Source of the DNA: Crambe crambe
Taxonomy: Eukaryota; Porifera; Demospongiae; Poecilosclerida; Crambeidae
DNA length: 64,000 nt
Assembly (NCBI GenBank): GCA_963924555.1
Contig: OZ004597.1
Location: forward strand, 1,240,001 to 1,304,000
Direction of reading: 5' to 3'
The translations under genes were made by a program, and so were the position numbers. The notes below the pieces were generated by a model, which was not told the DNA's origin, did no database searches, and was given only the letters and a program-made list of their open reading frames with translations. Below, one piece after another: positions 21,697-33,418 of this stretch; the stretch's first letter is position 1; every line of letters begins with the position of its first letter.

Positions 21697-24191
21697 AGTT
21701 ATTAATGAATACACAAAGAGGATGACCACAGCACACAACAATGCAAAAATAATAAATGAGGGCCAGAGGCTCTAAAATTGGATATTCCCAAGAGAGATTA
21801 AAAGAGAATTTTCCTTTAGGTTAGTACTTAGGGTATAGATCTGTCTGTCTCAATCTTTCTGTCTGTGTACTTATCACTTCTTTTACACACTTCCTCCCTT
21901 CTCTTTCACTTTCACTTAAAGTGGGTCTTCCCACATCATCCTACCCACTTTCCAATAACTTCTGCTTGAGTCTGGTGACCTCCCCTGAGTGTTCCTGTGT
22001 TTTCACCTGCTCCTCTTCCAGTTTGCATTGCAGATCAGCTGCAGAGGGAGGTGGGTGATCATAATAAACAAAACGGTTACCATGGAAGTAGGAGATACAA
22101 CAATCCTTATAGGAAATCACCCATGGACTGGTTCTCATTTTGGTTGCTCTAGCCATGACTATCATTAAGCAGCCAACTAACACCTCATGGTAAACAGAGG
22201 CACATCCCACACTGGAATTGTGTTGACTAACACAGGATGCCCCAATAAATAATAGATCATGTGCATGGTGTATCTTAGTGACTGCTACTTGTAGAGCTTG
22301 GTAGAGATAGATGTGTCTTCCCTTTTAGCCATTCTCTACGATCTTGATTGGCTGATACTTCACATATTAACACTTACCATTACTACTGACTTGGTGTTAA
22401 TATAATATCAGTCAATTTCAGTACCATTTAATAAACTATTTTTTTTATCATTAAATTCTTACACTCTGACCTCCAACTTACCCAAACTTGATTGCCATTT
22501 TCTTGCCTGCTGCTCAAACAACTCCACTACATTGTCAACGGATACACCTTTCAGCTGAAAAAAATGAATAATAAATTGGAAGCAATAACAATTATGCCTT
22601 TACCAGCATTTCATTTCGAAGGATTCCCATCACAAGACTAAATATTTTAGAATTCCTTTGGGCACTCTTACAGAGTAAGCTGTAGACTAACGACTACATA
22701 ATGATCTGAATTGCTGTGTACCATTCTTCATAACTACTGCAGCCATACTCACTACAAGAGAATGCCACTCTACTCACAAACACTCTAGGATGGAAGGAAG
22801 GTAGGTAGTTAACTCACCGAGCGGTTTGGTCCTAGCAACCGATCTAACAAGTGCTTCCCCTCATTGAAGATTGAGTTTGTGAGAGGGTGGGGGAGAGTGG
22901 CTGTTCCTGAGGGTCTGTTTTTGTACGATTTGGGTGTGGCGTCACAGTCTGGTGACTGCACAGACACGTATTGCAGGGAAGGTGAGGATATTTCAGTCTC
23001 CACAAACTGTCTGGCCTGTGTAGATAAGCCACAAGAGTTCTCAGTCTTGGAGGGAGGGGCCTTGTCACATTGATCCCTGGGAGTCTCTATGAAGGCCTGA
23101 TTGGCAGGACTAATTGATAGGGACTGCCTCTGTTTGGCTCTACTGTCCTCTGCTTCCTCCGGGCTTGAGCACCCATCAGGTGTTAGTTCGTCCCTACTAC
23201 CCGGTGTGGAGGTACGTGGCCATGGGTACCCATTCAAGGAGGTGTGACTGTTACTAGCAGTGGTTGAGCTCGTACAAGAGGCAGGGCTTGAACTTGGATC
23301 AGCAGCAATCAAATCAGAGCAGCTGTTGACTCGTACTTGCTTCCGTTTTGCCTTTGCAGTTGTACCACCTCCTTTGCCCTTAGCATTAGCACTAGATATT
23401 GGCACTGCTGGTGAACCAGATGACGTCTTGCCACTGTTCCTTAAATCTCGTTCCGAAGAGCTCTTTCTTGTCGGCATGTTCTGTCCAGATTGCTTGTGGG
23501 AAGCAGATTTCGTCTTGTCCTTGTCTTTCATATTTCTTAAATTCTCCGTACTAGCAGCCTTGTACATTCCTCCTGTTCTGAAAGGATACGAAGTCTTCTT
23601 GGCCTCTTTGACTTGAATTTCCTTCCCCGCTACCCCTTTAGTGGCAAAAGCCTTCATGGGCTGACGGCGATTGGAATGCTGTGCAACTGTAGTTCTCTTG
23701 ATGGGCTGAGAGAGACGATTGACAAGATCATTCTGAATGGAAAGACCAACTTTGTTCACTGAAGGAGTGACAGGGGGTGCAGAGGACTTGACGGAAGCCG
23801 GCCTTGGGGATTCCTTTCGTTCCACCGAGGGGGCTCGACTGCTAGGCTGGCTATTGGGACGGCTACGTGACCTCCGATTTGTGTCCAATTCCACTTTTGA
23901 AACGGGAACAAACACACCACAGTTGTCCTCACACATGAAATAACGGATGCCATGCACGGAGCCATTGTTCTTCCCGTTGGGTTGATCAAGCTCCACCCCA
24001 CACCACACACCCTCAGAGAACTCGGGCTCCCCCACATAGCGGAGGACACCAAATTTTTGTTTCTTGTCATTCCCTGAAGTGAAGATGATCCTCTTTCCCA
24101 GATCAGTCACCTTTGGTCGAATCTGGACAACCTTGGGAGCACCATCTGTACTGTTGCTATCATCAGAGTCCGAATAGTCGGGGGAATCCAT
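21086..24191 (-). CDS. CAP-Gly domain protein with short coiled coil
   Basis: Starts on the minus strand at the ATG at 24191 after an acidic Ser/Asp leader. The CAP-Gly domain lies at about 24110-23900: GKRIIFTSGNDKKQKFGVLR, EFSEGVWCGVELDQPNG and GSVHGIRYFMCEDNCGVFV, where GKNNG stands for the usual GKNDG. A long Ser/Lys/Arg-rich, probably disordered region fills the rest of exon 1. Then five small exons encode a coiled coil (LKGVSVDNVVELFEQQARKW; LEEEQVKTQEHSGEVTRL; EMTKEHQREILTL). Phases agree to TAA at 21086-21088. CAP-Gly domains bind the EEY/F tails of tubulin and EB proteins, so a microtubule plus-end or dynactin-type role is likely. It resembles CLIP proteins but has one CAP-Gly domain and a much shorter coil, so I give no symbol. 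Confidence 0.8.
21606..21693. repeat. (GA)n microsatellite in a CAP-Gly gene intron
   Basis: About 45 near-perfect GA units. ORFs of Arg/Glu or Ser/Leu across it are artefacts. Confidence 0.95.
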
Positions 24192-24654: not shown

Positions 24655-25631
24655 ATGAAGGGTAGCAGAGGTGTGTCCTGGAGTGAGATGGTGCACTATA
24701 GGGTACTGGCAGTGCTGTTACTTGCATTACTGTGTTCCTTAGTGATGGTACTCTTGCATCCCCTACTACTCAGCTCTGCTCCAGGACGCCATAAACCCCC
24801 TGAGGCCGAGATAGGTATGGCCTGTTGTTACCTAATATCCCGGTTAGGTAAATCATACCTTAAAGTACACCCTATTTTGTATTTTCCTTTTGATTTCAAT
24901 GTAAACATATTAACAATAACACTGGTGAGTACTGAGCCAAAGGCCAAAGTTAGTAAGTTATCAAACTCTAAATATTTTAGTTTCAATATTTTCCAATGGT
25001 GTGTAACACACAGAATCTAGTCCATGGAAGTGCAATCATAGATTCTAATTAGTTCCAATCGCATCTTTGTCAATCGTCATGCTGCCGCCCCCATTTTTTC
25101 AGGTCCTCCCCCTAGATACCACCATGGCAACAGGTATAAACAGGTGGTGTTAGTGACTGGAGCAGCTGGCTTCATTGGGTTCCATGTCTCCAATGCCCTA
25201 GCAACTCAGTGGAGGGCCACAGTTGTGGGTGTGGACAGTTATACAGAGTCCTATGACGTCCAACTCAAATGGGACAGAACTAACGAGCTCATTAAAGCAG
25301 GGGTTCATATGTACAGAGGGGATGTGTGTGATCAGACACTTCTATCATTCTTGTTTGAGAAGTTCAATTTCACCAGTGTGGTACACTTAGCAGCACAGGC
25401 TGGAGTGAGGTATTCACTTGAGCATCCACTCCATTTCATCCATAGCAACATTGAGTGTTATATTACATTGCTCAACCTCATCAAAGCTCATAAGGTGAGC
25501 AGTCATTTGACGTGTTGGGGCATCCTGCTGGCTTCTTTACTGGTACTGGAGCACTGTTTGGGGTTTCTAGTGGTAGTGGATGCCTAAGGCTTCATACCTG
25601 AGGCCAAAAACAGCCCAGATCATAACAATTA

Positions 25632-25662
<31 letters not shown>

Positions 25663-28600
25663 TGTCTACACAGCACATTTCTCTAGTGTATGCCTCCTCC
25701 TCTTCAGTATACGGGCACAATTCACCCCTCCCTTTCTCGTCCTCCCTGTCCCCCCATATTCCCTCCAACATATACGCGGCTACCAAACACTCCAATGAGC
25801 TCTTTGCCAAGGCCTTCTGTTTGCAGCACAACTTGAGGGCAGTGGGGCTGAGGTTTTTCACAGTGTATGGGCCCTGGGGGAGACCAGACATGGCTGTCTA
25901 CAAATTTGCCCAGAATATGCTGAATGGTAGACCTCTCGTTATGTACAACTCTTCCCAGCCACTGGTACGAGACCTCACCTTTATCTCTGATGCTGTCAAA
26001 GGGATACTACTGGCATTGGAGTACAAGCCTTCTCAGTGTGGGGAGGTATACAACATTGGTTCAGGACAGATGGTAAACATATATGCTTTGCTGAGGCTCC
26101 TTGAAACTGAATTGAACACAACTGCCTCTTTGGTAAGTCTATGGATTGAATGGGACAATAGCAGCAGCAAGAACACACACCTTTAACATTTACTGACTGG
26201 TAAGGCTGATGAATTTGGTGATAAGAGCTAGGTACCACCTTCTGGTTGTTTCAAATACATCTAGGAATGTTTGCTTTGTATATGGAGTGGACACAGCTCT
26301 CAATTCAGCCACCATCTGTCCATTATCTGTTTACCCTCTGAGTCTTTCCCTCATCCTGTCCACTCTGCAGGCCAAAAAACTGCCTCTACCACCTTGTGAT
26401 CTGCCTGCCACTTTGGCTGACATCTCTAAGTCACAAAGAGTACTGGGTTATAAGCCTCAGGTGAGTATCCAGCAAGGAATAAGGGAGTTCGTCCACTGGC
26501 TGAAAGTGTACTTACCACTGAGGGAGATGAGGATGAAAAAGGGAATTAATGAATTGGAGTGAGTTGGTGGTTTTATGGTGTGTGGAAATTGAGGTTTTGT
26601 AATGGCTTGCATGAAGGAGGATGTTGATGCTGGAAGAGAGAGAAGTGGCTGAGATGAAGAGAAAAAAACTAGATCTAATCAACTCTGACTTCCTTAAGAG
26701 ACTGCACGTTCTCAGAAATAAGTGAGGCAACAGCTTGTATTGTATTGTGTGTGTGTGTGTGTATGTGTATGTGTGTGGGTTAATGACGCTATCACACATC
26801 AACTGTGAATGTCTCTCAGATATAAGGAATTTGCACAGGAAATCAAGAGAGAATTGCCAAGAGATCTGGGAAAGAAGAAATTCATATACTACCCAGGTAA
26901 TTTAAAACCCATTTGATCTCTGATATGCATTAACCTTTAATGTCGATCACAGTAATTGTGTCAGTGACATGCGTGTTTGTGTGTTTGTGTGTATGTACGT
27001 GTAGGAGTTGACTCTAGAGGGTCCACAATAATCAAAGGACCTCATTACCAAGGCAACAAGACAGTAAGTAGCAATGTATCTCATCCTCATGACACCTTCC
27101 TAATATTGCTCCCTCCTAGCTGCTGAAGAAGCGTTGTCAAATGACTGAACAGTGTATTGCATTCACTTCCAAGGGCGAGTTCAAAAATCATATCAATCCA
27201 CCGAAAAAATGGATAAAGAAATCCAAATCTGAGGGTCTCTATGTGGGAGGTATGTTCCTTAGTTACATGTGTTGGCCTAGCTAGCAGCTATAGAGGAGCT
27301 GGTCAGTTTATAGAATGCGGTATTTTCTGCTCTATGTTTTTATTACCCCTTGCCCACATGTGCCTGTACATGCATGCAGATATAGACATGTGCCTGTACA
27401 TGCATGCAGATATAGACATGTGCCTGTACATGCATGCAGATATAGACATGTGCCTGTACATGCATGCAGATATAGACATGTGTGCTACTGACCTGCACAA
27501 TTGTGGCAAACACCAAGACTGCATCTTTACAGGTTTGGCTCGGCTATTTTCATTTCCTGTCAGTGTCATGATTTTTTTCCCCCTCAAGGTCCCTCTAGCT
27601 ACAATTGTACTTGTCACAAATCATTTGTCAAATTGGCCTCAGGCTGCATTGAAAAGTAAGCAGTCAGTGTTTCATCATGTGACGTTATCACGTGACTGTC
27701 ATGTTCAGGTACGAAGAAGGAGTGGTTAGTGAAGCCGAAAACAACTTTCGCTTCTCCAACTACTTTGATGGACTTGACTGGGGGAAATATACACAGGGAA
27801 AGAACTTTGTTTTTTTCCAGGCATGTGCTCATTGCTATGGAGATTATGTGGTAATATTCAATCTTAATGCTAGGGGGTTGACTCACCTGGAGGGGATTAT
27901 CTAGTGGTAAAAGGTGGAGCTGATAGTGTGGAGAAGTTGAAGAAGATCTGTAGTAAGTTGGACAACTGTTTGGCATTCAATACCAATGGGATTCTGAAAC
28001 ACTCTCTCAAACCTCCTGAAAAGTGGATTCGCTGGACAAAAGACTCAAAACGTGGCATGTATGTGTTAGGTAAAGAACCAACCTCCATTTTACTGAGCTA
28101 ATAAAGTGAGGGAAAATGTTTATTGCTTATCAGATGTGGACTACTGTAGTCTTGATGGAGAGCAGTGTCCTTCACATTCCAGCTGTTTCCACCATTCCCC
28201 AGGAAACTACAGCTGCAAGTGTGTTCCTCCCTGGACCATGTCTACAGGACTGGAGTATTCTTGTGAAATTGAGGGAGAGAACATTAACAGTAAAGATATC
28301 AGAAAGAATGCCATGACAACGGTGGAGTCTGAAGTGATGGAAGTCGGATCTGACTTGAGTGCTACAAAGGAGGCTGTAATTGTCACAGAGATGGATGGTG
28401 GGATGGATCACAACATTCATGTGATTGTGTCATGTGACCAAAACCACTTGCCAGGACTTGTCAGTGTCCTTCATTCTGTTATCAGAAACACTCGCTCCGT
28501 CAAGAACCTTCATCTCCACCTCATCTTGTCTGGATTGACAAGGGAGGAATTCACTCACTACCTCCAGTGCTATCCCCCTCTCCCTGTCCACTCCCCCCTG

Positions 28601-29777
28601 GACGTGGTCCAACTGGACCCTCAGCTGCTGAAAGGACGTATTCATGTGTACTCGTCCCCAGAAGAAGTCGGGAATCTGAGCAGTCTGGCAAACTTTGGCA
28701 GGTTCTTCTTCCACGAACTATTCCCTCAATTGGAGCGAGCTCTTTACCTTGATGCTGACGTCATCGTCAAGGGAGACATTGCCGAACTGTGGAGGCAATT
28801 TTGTGCTTCAGATCAGCTGTTATTTGCGGCTCCAAGGTATTTTGAGATGTACCAGTACTTTTCCAACTAGTGCATATATTATATATAACCCATTGATGTA
28901 ACATACGTAGGACCAGGCCAACCTATGGTGACTTTTTTTCTCCCAAGGTTAGAAAAATATTCAAGGAAAGGTATTAATCATACTTGGACTGTATCTGTAT
29001 GAATATTATGCTGCATCGCTCTCTGATAAACACAAAGGTATGGAAGACACTTTAGCACTGGAGACCAGACTTTCAATTCTGGGGTGTATGGAGTCAACCT
29101 AGCTTTGTGGAGAGAAAAAAGGATCCATGATGAAGTCTTTTACTGGTTAGACCAGGTACAGTTTGACATGTCTCATATTATCCTTCTCTTAATTAAGGGG
29201 TCTTCTTAATTAAAGGGGTTCTACTCCTATACAGTATTGTTTTGTATTGCAGAAGTATTATCCTCTCTTAATTAAAGGGGTTCTACTCCTATATAGTATT
29301 GTTGTTTTGTATTACAGCAAGGACAGGAGCCTCTATGGAAGTTTGGTACTCAACCAATCATGTTATTAGTCGGCTACAAACAATGGACAGAAATGGATCA
29401 ACGTTGGAATGTAAATGGTGAGACATTGTCCTTCGATCCTGAAATTGATGCGTGATCGCTGTGTTCTCTTTAATGCACAAGGTTTGGGCTGGGATGAAAG
29501 CATACCAAAAGAGACCTTAGCAAGTGCCAAGTTGCTCCACTGGAATGGAAAGAGTGAGCATAAATAGAACTTCTTGATCGAATGAACTCATTCTTTTCCT
29601 CCTTCAGGGAAGCCATGGTTAAAGGAGGGACTTTACAGAGAAATATGGTCACAGCATGCACCCATACAGTGCACAGGACATGGTACGTGTGTGCTCATCA
29701 AAGAAGGCCAGCCGAGGTACACATGCCAATGTGAGAGGAACTACAGTGGAAACCAGTGCCAAATACATCTCTCATAA
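24655..29777 (+). CDS. Membrane-anchored UDP-glucuronate 4-epimerase-like / GT8 glycosyltransferase fusion with PAN-like and EGF modules
   Basis: One chain of about 17 exons keeps phase from the ATG at 24655 to TAA at 29775-29777. Order: short cytoplasmic N-terminus and transmembrane anchor ([18 protein letters not shown]); an SDR epimerase at about 25110-26510 with [32 protein letters not shown], catalytic YAATK and [15 protein letters not shown], the UDP-GlcA 4-epimerase signature; a coiled coil; PAN-like module 1 (about 26820-27250); EGF 1; PAN-like module 2 (27710-28070, [15 protein letters not shown]); EGF 2; a GT8 domain (28410-29640) with [12 protein letters not shown], DxD in [22 protein letters not shown] and LLHWNGKRKPW; and a last EGF (CTGHGTC...CQC). 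The GT8 part resembles GLT8D1/2 and plant GAUT enzymes. The anchor and EGFs imply a Golgi-lumen type II protein. Inference: it makes UDP-galacturonate and transfers a sugar, perhaps that one. Confidence 0.82.
25635..25663. repeat. (TC)n run near a splice acceptor
   Basis: A pure TC tract just before the acceptor (acacag) of the third epimerase exon; it probably acts as its polypyrimidine tract. Confidence 0.7.
27361..27480 (+). repeat. Four perfect 30-bp tandem repeats, each with a splice acceptor
   Basis: The unit tgcctgtacatgcatgcaga plus tatagacatg occurs four times without change. The last one supplies the acceptor (gcatgcag) and the first bases of the EGF 1 exon (from 27470). Every unit holds the same acceptor in the same frame, so use of an earlier one would add 10, 20 or 30 residues. 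Confidence 0.95.
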
Positions 29778-29866: not shown

Positions 29867-30939
29867 TCAAAATCTCCAAGAGATTCACGCAAAGTCTGTG
29901 AAGAGGAAGTCCTACTACATTGAAATAGTCCCCTTGGATACCTTCTATCAATGTTCCCCCTAAGCCCTGGATACCATATCTGTCATACCCAGTTAGTCAA
30001 GGACAGCTAATTCCATGCAGGAAATATTACCATTTTACTTAAGGAGGATACGCACCAGCTTTGTCCCTGCATGAAGAGAGGGAAAGGTCATAGGTCAAAG
30101 GTGGGCAGAGTGGTTTCACTCACAGTGGTTCCCTAGATTGGATGTAGGACTTCATCAGATCATCATTCAGTGGGGAAAATGTGACTCGAGTCACTTCGTG
30201 AAAGCATTTCACTGTTACTCCCTTTTCCTCTGTCCTCTGCACCAGTGCCACACCTGTACACACCTGGTGGGTGTGGCCACTCAAACTGTATGTATGCATG
30301 GATCATTCAGAACCCAATAACAAGGAAATGTAATGGCATACATTTTGAGCATCTCTTGTGCTCGCTCATTGGTCCCTGGTTTCTCGAGAATTTCATCATT
30401 CATGACCTATTAAAGTGTTTCCCAGTTATTCAGTGATACATACAGTGTCAACCTACAACTATTGTGTCTGCTCCAATCACTACTTCCCAGTCATCCCGGT
30501 CCTGTGATGTGATGTGTATAATTATACATGCAATATTGATTTTACCTTACCTAGTCTAGTATTACCTAGATATATAATTATTGACGATACCTTACCTTCA
30601 GACGTTTAGCCACTTCTTCTGCTTTGCCTGCAGCAGTGGACTCTGCATACTGCCACGCTTCTTTGTATTGGGTCTTATCCAGGTTCTCTTCAAATCTGGA
30701 GGGTACTACTTCAAGGGGGAAGGCCTGCATTGATATGGCAGTGATGGCCAGTGATGGGTTCATAGCAAGCCTCTAAAAAATCTAGTTACAATATTCTCCA
30801 GTATCTGCTTCCTTCTTGGAGACCCACTGGCTAGGATAACTCTTCTTCCTTTCAGCAGTTGACAGATTGGACCAAGCATCTCGATTCTTGACTCTAGGGC
30901 TACTTGCCACACCTCCCTCATTAACAAAACTTCGCTCAT
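29867..30939 (-). CDS. Maf-family nucleotide pyrophosphatase (ASMTL N-domain-like), seven exons
   Basis: Short exons on the minus strand, assembled by eye, give a full Maf domain. From the ATG at 30939 (an internal ATG at about 30880 is also possible): [20 protein letters not shown] with the Maf SxSPRR signature; [20 protein letters not shown] (30724-30596); [71 protein letters not shown]; and [20 protein letters not shown], ending with TGA at 29867-29869. Phases match at every junction tested. Maf proteins hydrolyse dTTP, UTP and modified NTPs to monophosphates, a house-cleaning role. In vertebrates this domain is fused to an O-methyltransferase in ASMTL; here the stop follows the domain directly, so it stands alone. 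The 3' end faces the epimerase-GT8 gene, 89 bp away. Exon edges are approximate. Confidence 0.85.
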
Positions 30940-31017
30940 TAGTGTTAATTTGTTAATTTCATTATTTGGGAAGTCATGTCAGAAGGGTGAAGACACAACC
31001 ACCGTTGACTTTAAATC
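30940..31017. promoter_or_regulatory. 78-bp divergent promoter region, Maf gene and KLHL8-like gene
   Basis: Only 78 bp lie between the most upstream Maf ATG (minus) and the Kelch ATG (plus). If the downstream Maf ATG is used the gap is about 140 bp. Both promoters must overlap or sit within transcribed leaders. Confidence 0.5.
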
Positions 31018-33418
31018 ATGGAAGATTCAGATGCAGAGAAAGAAGAACCACCGGTAGCTCCTCCGCCTCTCCCAGAAAGAACTTACCAGCAGCAGCAGCA
31101 ACAACAACATCACCATCCCCACAGTAGTAATACAAGAGAAGCGAACGTGGCAGCTGAAGTTGAAGGTACAGCTATCCGTAGTGAAGACTCATCACTTGAA
31201 AAGGTCACCAAGGCCATGGAAGACATCACTATTTCGGAGGAAAGTCCCAAAGAGTCTGACACTCAAGTATTTGCCCATGGTGAGCACCCTTCTCTAGCAT
31301 TTGTACAGATGCAGCAGATGAGAGAGGATGGTAAGCTGTGTGATGTGATCTTGGAAGTGGGGGACAGCAAGATTCATGCCCACAGGCTGGTTCTGGCTGC
31401 GTCAAGTACTTATTTTTATTCCATGTTCGTCCGAGACATGTTGGAGAGTCGGCAGGATCAGATTACTCTTCAAGGGGTAGACCCAGAAGCAATGTCTCTG
31501 CTGGTGGAATTTGCTTACTCCTCTAAGCTGGAGATCACCACAGCTAATGTCCAGTCCCTGATGACAGCTGCTTCGCTCTTCAACTTTCCAGCTGCTTTCA
31601 AGGCAACTTCTAAATTTCTTTCCAAACAGCTTGACCCTTCCAATTGTATTGGGATACGGGCTTTTGCCAAGACACACGGGAGTTCAGAGCTGGTGGAAAC
31701 AGCCACAGCGTACTTCCTGGAGCATTTCATGGAGACAGTAAAGAATGACGAATATGTCAATCTTCCTGCTGAGGATCTTGCATTCATGCTGGATAGTGGT
31801 GACCTTAATGTCCAATCAGAGGAAGACGTGTACCACGCAGTGCAGATATGGCTGCTCCATGCTCCCGAGGAGAGGAAAAAGAATCTTGCTCTTCTTTTGG
31901 GGAGTGTGCGTCTCCCTCTTCTTTCCCCTGCCTTCCTTACTCAGGAGGTGGAGAGCAACCAGTTTATCAGAAAAAGTCTTGAGTGTCGAGACTTGCTGGA
32001 CGAGGCCAAGAATTACCACCTGATGCATGAGAAGTTCATCAGATCGTCACTTGATCGATTCCAACCTCGCAAGTCCACTGTTGGTTTACTCTTTGCTATC
32101 GGAGGACGGGGGGCAGTCGGGGAACCATTCAGCAGTGTGGAATGTTACAACTTCCGCACTAACACTTGGCACGAAGGTCCAGAGCTTAAATCTCGTCGGA
32201 GGCATGTGGGTGTGGCCTGTCTGGGGAACAAGATCTATGCAGTTGGTGGACACGATGGGATCCAGCACTTGAACTCAGTGGAGTGTTATGACCCAAAGAA
32301 AGGACATTGGGAGTTTGTCGAATCCATGAAGAAACTGCGGCGGGGTATAGCAGTCGGGGTGCTTGGGGGACCTCTTTATGCTGTGGGTAAGTTCCTGTAA
32401 TTAGGGGGTCTGTTGATAACATAAGCACTTTGCTCAAGTGGATATGGAATGCTCCAGGGTGTAAATCAGTGAGTGATTGTGTGTGTGGTGACAAATTTTT
32501 GTATGATCATATTAGCAAATAGCTTCTCATCTAATGTGCAGGTGGCCTTGATGACGTCAATTGCTATCGTGCTGTGGAGCGATATGACCCAGAATCCAAT
32601 GAATGGATGGAAGTGGCTAGCTTACGGTCCCCACGGGGAGGAGTGGGAGTGGCTACCTTGGGGCGGTTCCTCTATGCGGCTGGAGGTAACGATGGGAACA
32701 CATCCCTCCAGACAGTGGAGAAGTATGACCCGCATATCAATAAGTGGGTGGAGGTGGCTCCCATGGCCAAGAGACGTGCTGGAGTGGGTTTGTCTGCCCT
32801 TAATGGCTACCTCTATGCTGCGGGGGGATTCGATGATGCCTCCCCTCTTAACACAGTGGAAAGGTGTGTGTGTGTGTGTGTGTGTGTGTGGGAGGGGGGG
32901 GTGTGGAGGAAGGAAGTGTATGATGCCACATAGCCAAGAGGAAGCAACAGTAATAACAGCAAAGGCCAAAAGCAAGGAAGTTTATTTCTCATCTTGTGCT
33001 TAGATCATTGTTAATAAAATACCTAGCATGAACTATCAGAGCACTTCACCACTCAGGGGCATGAATGGTGTGATGTGATGGTTGATCTTGTTCTTGTGAA
33101 ATTGAACTTCATTTCTCTCCTTTCAGGTACGATCCGGACCAAAATGAATGGGTCTTCGTACAGTCCATGCATATCTGCCGAGGAGGAGTTGGACTGGCCT
33201 CTCTTGGGGGGTACCTCTTTGCCATTGGAGGACATGATGGGAAGTGTTACCTGCAGACAGCAGAGGTATACTGCTCCAGGACCAATTCGTGGTCCATGGT
33301 GGCTAGCATGAAGACCAGTCGAGCTGGGGCAGGTGTGGTCTCCTGTCCTCCCTCTACCCTCACACTCAACATCAGCACCAGCAATTTCTCGGTCCCAGAG
33401 TCTCTGGGTTCTCTTTAA
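31018..33418 (+). CDS. KLHL8: BTB-BACK-Kelch protein, KLHL8-like Cul3 adaptor
   Basis: Three exons: 31018-32385, about 32542-32863 and about 33127-33418, ending with TAA. A Gln/His tract (31087-31116) lies in the acidic leader. The BTB domain reads LCDVILEVGDSKIHAHRLVL and SSTYFYSMFVRDM; the BACK domain follows (IRAFAKTHGSSELVETATAY). Six Kelch blades run from LLFAIGGRGAVGEPFSSVEC to the end, with conserved GG pairs (YAVGGHDG, YAAGGNDG, YAAGGFDD, FAIGGHDG). The GRGxVGEPFxSVECY start of the first blade is typical of KLHL8. Such proteins bind Cul3 through BTB and present substrates held by the Kelch propeller for ubiquitination. The last exon ends in a short Ser/Thr tail. A TG microsatellite (32866-32890) overlaps the second donor. 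Confidence 0.9.

Follow-up and report, generated by a model that had tools for sequence, protein, structure and literature searches.

A gene joining an epimerase-like domain to a GT8 domain

The window analysed here, a stretch of 64,000 nucleotides from the sponge Crambe crambe (positions 1,240,001 to 1,304,000 of contig OZ004597.1, in an assembly of 143 Mb and 119 contigs), contains an 18-exon gene model on the forward strand, in which all phases agree and which encodes a protein of 1,076 amino acids. The encoded protein consists of a membrane anchor, a short-chain dehydrogenase/reductase (SDR) domain resembling UDP-glucuronate (UDP-GlcA) 4-epimerases, a coiled linker, two units each made of a cysteine-rich and an EGF domain, a glycosyltransferase domain of family GT8 and a C-terminal EGF domain. 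Of the 17 introns, which are 53 to 288 bases long, 16 are of the GT-AG type and one, intron 11, is GC-AG; the acceptors are CAG (9), AAG (4) and TAG (4). Judged by its domain matches, the whole protein is a new combination of known families. An earlier note on this DNA had considered the fusion undescribed, and no description of it was found in the open-licence literature that was searched; the available text of PMC3220709 anticipates only the epimerase part, with a table (Table 1) that counts 10 metazoan proteins close to plant GAE.

The only clear membrane segment spans residues 14-41 (best 19-residue hydropathy of 2.89 at residue 17), in agreement with the single N-terminal anchor proposed in the earlier note; one more single window exceeds 1.6, at residue 68 inside the Rossmann fold. 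The linker preceding the two repeat units is charged, and a long helix occupies the linker position in the predicted structure of a relative from the sponge Geodia. Since the whole-protein Geodia model has a predicted template modelling score (pTM) of 0.46, its placement of the domains was not used. The two repeat units are 38% identical to each other. Their cysteine-rich domain appears PAN-like by eye, and the EGF matches are weak, all below the Pfam cut-offs; several relatives pass an EGF cut-off. PF27506 is found in the precomputed annotation of some relatives, and the Pfam scans made here did not report it. At the border of intron 8 and exon 9 (27356-27482), a perfect tandem repeat of 30 bases is present in 4.2 copies (TRF, 100% matches). 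As every unit has the same acceptor and keeps the frame, in-frame length variants beside the first EGF domain are possible.

The join between the two domains and its conservation

The fusion is created by the splicing of intron 4, since the unspliced SDR frame stops at the TGA 26561-26563. The intron has the donor gtgagt, and its acceptor, one of the four AAG acceptors of the model, is weak and lacks a clear pyrimidine tract, which speaks against a single polypeptide. One could thus assume two neighbouring genes, an epimerase gene ending at this TGA and a downstream GT8 gene. Besides the stop codon directly after the SDR domain and the weak acceptor, such an arrangement would fit four relatives of the same SDR clade (P0007-P0010) that are without GT8 in their available sequence, at least one of which is marked partial and others of which lie on short contigs. 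However, the exon 5 peptide from 26617 aligns without internal gaps to the Geodia linker LEQSLAEREKEV and also aligns to other relatives, and the same join is read through in Geodia, Dysidea, Capitella, a Halichondria panicea model, which begins within the SDR domain and extends to the last EGF domain, and P0002. The latter is a 970-residue frame on a contig of 3,059 bases, and thus probably represents a spliced message or cDNA. Moreover, if a GT8/EGF protein began at 26621, it would presumably be devoid of a hydrophobic segment. At the level of sequence, this comparative read-through is the decisive support for the join; the two-gene arrangement was rejected on these grounds and is regarded as very improbable. 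The earlier note had proposed one polypeptide made from phase-consistent exons, which the relatives bear out; its check for a single transcript was run on relatives only, whose sequences span the join. Contamination or an assembly chimera was also rejected, as the exons lie in order on one contig, are separated by many introns and encode an architecture common to the relatives.

Table 1. Features of the fusion gene, with positions counted from the first letter of the window
Feature	Position	Strand	Evidence
Exon 1: translation start, membrane anchor (residues 14-41, nt 24694-24777)	24655..24814	+	hydropathy
Exon 2: SDR, NAD-binding GAAGFIG (25159-25179), AAQAGVRYS	25103..25494	+	
Exon 3: SDR catalytic residues S193-S195, Y218, K222, T247, R254	25674..26132	+	
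Exon 4: SDR C-terminus (SDR domain 25141-26514), start of linker	26371..26558	+	
Intron 4: 58 bases, removes in-frame TGA 26561-26563; join creating the fusion	26559..26616	+	exon 5 homology
Exon 5: coiled linker (linker overall about residues 386-454)	26617..26721	+	homology; long helix in Geodia model
Exons 6-8: last part of linker, cysteine-rich domain 1 (PAN-like by eye; residues 455-523)	26820..27249	+	
Exons 9-10: first EGF domain	27470..27655	+	PF12947, below curated cut-off
Exons 11-12: spacer, cysteine-rich domain 2 (residues 598-669); GC-AG intron 11	27709..28069	+	
Exon 13: EGF domain 2 (to about 28261), GT8 N-terminal part containing DxD (28745-28768)	28134..28836	+	
Exons 14-17: remaining GT8 core; FNSGV, GTQP, WNVNGLGW	28911..29553	+	
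Exon 18: end of GT8 (HWNGKRKPW 29538-29618; domain to 29624), C-terminal EGF (29658-29765), stop	29608..29777	+	

For the search for relatives, the 7,992 candidates with the most shared words were scored and the best 120 of 143 matches were listed, so that the spread given here is a lower bound. Among these 120, at least six proteins (P0001-P0006) have the SDR domain, linker, repeats and GT8 domain in this order. The fusion is present in the sponges Geodia, Dysidea and H. panicea and in the worm Capitella, which does not agree with a fusion restricted to sponges; furthermore, the models of Owenia (partial) and Lamellibrachia contain the SDR domain, the linker and the repeats or part of them and have no GT8 domain as deposited, as is also the case for P0008 and P0010. 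Not all relatives show the anchor: the N-terminus is missing from P0003 and P0007, and no clear anchor is present in P0002. P0006, which we take from the format of its name to come from a choanoflagellate, is among the six. In P0005, a protein of 1,741 amino acids, the stretch after the C-terminal EGF domain looks by eye like a degenerate second GT8 domain; Pfam reports one GT8 domain. Taken together, the fusion is real and conserved, and it seems to be an old, overlooked animal enzyme rather than an artefact.

Two metagenomic proteins, P0011 and P0012, have the reverse order, with GT8 first and SDR last. Their SDR domains lie apart from the SDR clade of the fusion proteins and their GT8 domains fall into the same wider group as the fusion GT8s, and they apparently result from a separate event that joined these two functions. 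A scan of viral contigs with P0012 found no relative. The Pfam content of the best 120 of 143 relatives includes PF03721 (55), PF01501 (8), PF04765 (7) and PF01762 (3). The 55 fusions of a UDP-sugar dehydrogenase with a GAE-type SDR resemble the window protein in joining this SDR to a pathway neighbour; however, they join the upstream step of the pathway, whereas the window protein joins a transferase. P0015, presumably from Chromosphaera to judge by the format of its name, combines a similar GAE-type SDR with a C-terminal half without Pfam match, which is possibly another transferase.

The epimerase and glycosyltransferase domains

The SDR domain matches PF01370 at residues 69-313 (E-value 1.2e-48) and has the extended-SDR fold and the NAD-binding motif GAAGFIG at residues 73-79. 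It carries the hallmarks GPWGRPDM (250-257) and AAQAGVRYS and the catalytic residues Y218, K222 and S193. In comparison with BcUGAepi, the UDP-GlcA 4-epimerase of B. cereus, the residues S127, S128, Y149, K153, T178, R185 and T280 correspond to S194, S195, Y218, K222, T247, R254 and T351, whereas T126, P85 and Q211 are replaced by S193, A153 and L281. Decarboxylases carry a glutamate at the position of BcUGAepi Ser128 (PMC7984243, available text), and Arg185 holds the carboxylate of the product (PMC12338863, available text). The window protein has Ser195 where the decarboxylases UXS and ArnA have this glutamate, and both the carboxylate-binding serine (S195) and the product-binding arginine (R254) are kept. 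The Ser, Tyr, Lys and Arg residues are conserved in 13 of the 15 relatives checked; P0121 does not cover these sites, and in P0122 His and Arg replace Tyr and Lys and Asn replaces T247. The GT8 motifs of P0122 are intact, and its SDR may be a non-catalytic epimerase domain.

The SDR tree comprised 43 rows, namely 37 of the 120 listed relatives, the window protein and five references; the partial P0121 and the degenerate P0122 were left out, and the decarboxylases were represented by ArnA, UXS itself being absent. The window protein falls into a clade of 11 rows (99/96) with P0001-P0006, which have a GT8 domain, and P0007-P0010. This clade lies within a set of 30 rows that includes six plant or plant-alga sequences (100/100), and the wider GAE group has 38 rows (92/99). 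GalE together with a GALE-like gene of the C. crambe genome (100/100), RfbB together with its TGDS-like gene (99/94) and ArnA are placed outside this group; long branches are seen for ArnA, RfbB, TGDS and P0006. In a search of PDB sequences, the best match was 5u4q (241.7 bits), followed by the B. cereus enzyme (6zl6, 146.9 bits; 6zlj, 145.1 bits) and MoeE5 (113.8 bits), and UXS1 chains reached 62 to 67 bits; a fold search with the Geodia model also returned 5u4q first and then the B. cereus enzyme. The solved structures that match best in both sequence and fold, BcUGAepi (6zl6), MoeE5 (6kv9) and 5u4q, the latter probably from Klebsiella and presumably active as a UDP-GlcA 4-epimerase, are bacterial single-domain proteins.

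By sequence, the SDR part is thus assigned as a UDP-GlcA 4-epimerase, which likely makes UDP-galacturonate (UDP-GalA), from which pectin is built. An SDR that acts on another UDP-sugar, such as a UDP-GlcNAc uronate, or that is a decarboxylase or dehydratase, could be proposed instead, as this SDR type is combined in some bacterial fusions with dehydrogenases whose names refer to UDP-GlcNAc or UDP-GalNAc. The three replacements relative to BcUGAepi would be in line with such an activity, 5u4q is labelled dTDP-glucose 4,6-dehydratase in the sequence search and NAD-dependent epimerase in the fold search, and no NCBIfam model passes its cut-off, the best match being dTDP-glucose dehydratase (TIGR01181, 138.6 bits), far below the cut-off of 365.1, followed by galE (132 against 262.3). 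However, the grouping with plant GAEs, the B. cereus epimerase among the best solved matches, the serine in place of the decarboxylase glutamate and the retained arginine make an activity of this kind improbable, and a decarboxylase or dehydratase was rejected on the basis of Ser195 and the tree. The assignment of the earlier note to the GAE/CapI kind is thereby upheld in both the active site and the tree, which places the SDR with plant GAEs and away from GALE, RfbB/TGDS and ArnA.

The second domain matches PF01501 at residues 765-1026 (E-value 1.2e-41). It belongs to GT8 by this match, the DxD in YLDADVIV (874-881), the HxxGxxKPW motif HWNGKRKPW (1016-1024) and the GT-A fold, which was shown for a close relative; the metal and nucleotide motifs are kept, which supports the GT8 assignment of the earlier note. 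We know of no GAUT, the galacturonosyltransferases of plants within GT8, that carries an epimerase. GAUTs have the DxD and HxxGxxKPW motifs (PMC7533613, available text) found in the window protein, and the likeness between the two is one of motifs, as no GAUT was named among the protein-search and PDB matches. The GT8 tree consisted of 14 of 28 protein-search matches, 10 proteins with the two domains in either order, the window protein and one LARGE, with no plant GAUT among its rows; the other 14 matches, fragments and P0143, were left out. LARGE1, which is paired with a second transferase and not with a sugar-nucleotide enzyme, lies on the opposite side of the deepest split from the window protein. 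The enzyme is assigned to GT8 without subfamily, and for its donor GalA is the best single guess.

In the C. crambe genome, a search with the fusion protein gave 22 matches, of which five lie off the locus (three distant SDR genes with 22-30% identity and two weak EGF-like stretches); the only strong match is the locus itself, and the TGDS-like and GALE-like genes are among the other SDR matches. As the searches read the genome exon by exon and with a capped number of candidates, absences are provisional, including that of a second GAE-like gene, which was not found. One gene of the UDP-glucose-dehydrogenase family (PF03721) and one weak match to ArnA, used to search for UXS, were detected. 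The PF01501 search revealed two other GT8 genes, LARGE-like by eye; two very similar single-exon LARGE-like genes lie about 15 kb apart on one contig (L001 and L002, at about 488 and 473 kb). A profile scan of genome contigs with a GT8 alignment (P0134, P0138 and P0143) yielded three loci. The neighbourhoods of two of them leave the donor undecided, since L029 shows no SDR by eye and the SDR frame of L030, about 3 kb from GT8, shares only 23% identity with the Geodia protein. Around the fusion gene, a frame with a CAP-Gly-like start lies head to head with it on the reverse strand, about 460 bases away (22809-24191), followed on the other side by a Maf/ASMTL-type-like frame (30578-30978, reverse strand) and a BTB-Kelch-like frame (31015-32400, forward strand), all by eye.

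Proposed function and galacturonate in animals

To our knowledge, UDP-GalA synthesis is not a standard pathway of animals. We consider it fairly probable that the fusion protein is a Golgi enzyme that makes UDP-GalA and adds alpha-linked GalA to a glycan. It would cross the membrane once as a type II protein of the secretory pathway, probably residing in the Golgi, with both enzymes in the lumen; plant GAE, which has an N-terminal membrane anchor as well, would differ from it by lacking the EGF-rich repeats and GT8 that are added here in an animal. Using tightly bound NAD+, the SDR would oxidize UDP-GlcA at C4, turn the keto-intermediate and reduce it to UDP-GalA. The GT8 domain, held on the coiled linker and the EGF-rich stalk, would use UDP-GalA and Mn2+ in a retaining reaction that places alpha-GalA onto a glycan that is secreted or lies at the cell surface. 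Having both in one protein may provide a local supply of UDP-GalA from a reversible reaction where no other such epimerase was found. The location, both activities, the donor, the linkage and the local coupling are all inferred.

Several points weigh against this proposal. GalA as the donor does not follow from the family and motifs, because donors vary widely within GT8, and the GT8 domains of the fusion proteins are not united in a single supported clade, with P0005 and P0006 standing apart (supports 83-89). Nor do the two activities always occur together, as P0122 and P0015 illustrate. Sponge triterpene glycosides such as nobiloside and the sokodosides contain beta-D-galacturonic acid (PMC10057720, available text); the sponge GalA known so far is thus beta-linked and would not be the product of a retaining GT8. 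An alternative would be an enzyme whose SDR makes UDP-GalA and whose GT8 transfers another sugar, for instance GlcA, Gal or Xyl, the two sharing a compartment without channelling while UDP-GalA feeds other transferases. In line with this, the GT8 family is polyspecific, a galactosyltransferase, WbbM and LARGE1 are among the nearest of its solved members, P0122 keeps its GT8 although its SDR has lost Tyr and Lys, and the known sponge GalA is beta-linked. On the other hand, the two metagenomic proteins apparently arrived at the pairing separately in reverse order. Moreover, in the alpha-1,4-galactosyltransferase LgtC, also of GT8, the active-site Gln189 is preceded by Asp (DQ), whereas the window protein has TQ by profile alignment and motif; given the role that we assume for this Asp, Thr would suit a C6 carboxylate. 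A GT8 with another donor is considered unlikely, and a galacturonosyltransferase remains the preferred reading.

GalA in sponge extracts is possibly made by symbionts. Binding to galacturonic and polygalacturonic acid is described for HpL, a lectin from H. panicea (PMC4557014), and a lectin of Aplysia eggs likewise recognizes galacturonic acid (PMC5484111); the available text of neither shows the endogenous ligand. The earlier note had tentatively linked the fusion to sponge aggregation factors, for which nothing was found: in the available text, the Microciona factor is described with uronic acids and glucuronic acid, galacturonic acid not being named (PMC7828597), and an acidic Sarcotragus polysaccharide is described as containing GlcA (PMC10971851). 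In the available text of PMC6994554, galacturonic acid appears only as a plant wall component.

It is tempting, if rather doubtful, to speculate that sponges, annelids and other lineages, perhaps including choanoflagellates, inherited a self-supplying galacturonosyltransferase that produces a pectin-like, acidic extracellular alpha-GalA glycan, which would be absent from vertebrates and the usual model animals and may have been overlooked since its uronic acid was read as GlcA. If true, the fusion of maker and user would add a sugar to the glycan alphabet of animals, the gene would serve as a marker for where to seek GalA in animals, and the enzyme would be a natural case of a reversible sugar-nucleotide step joined to the transferase that consumes its product.

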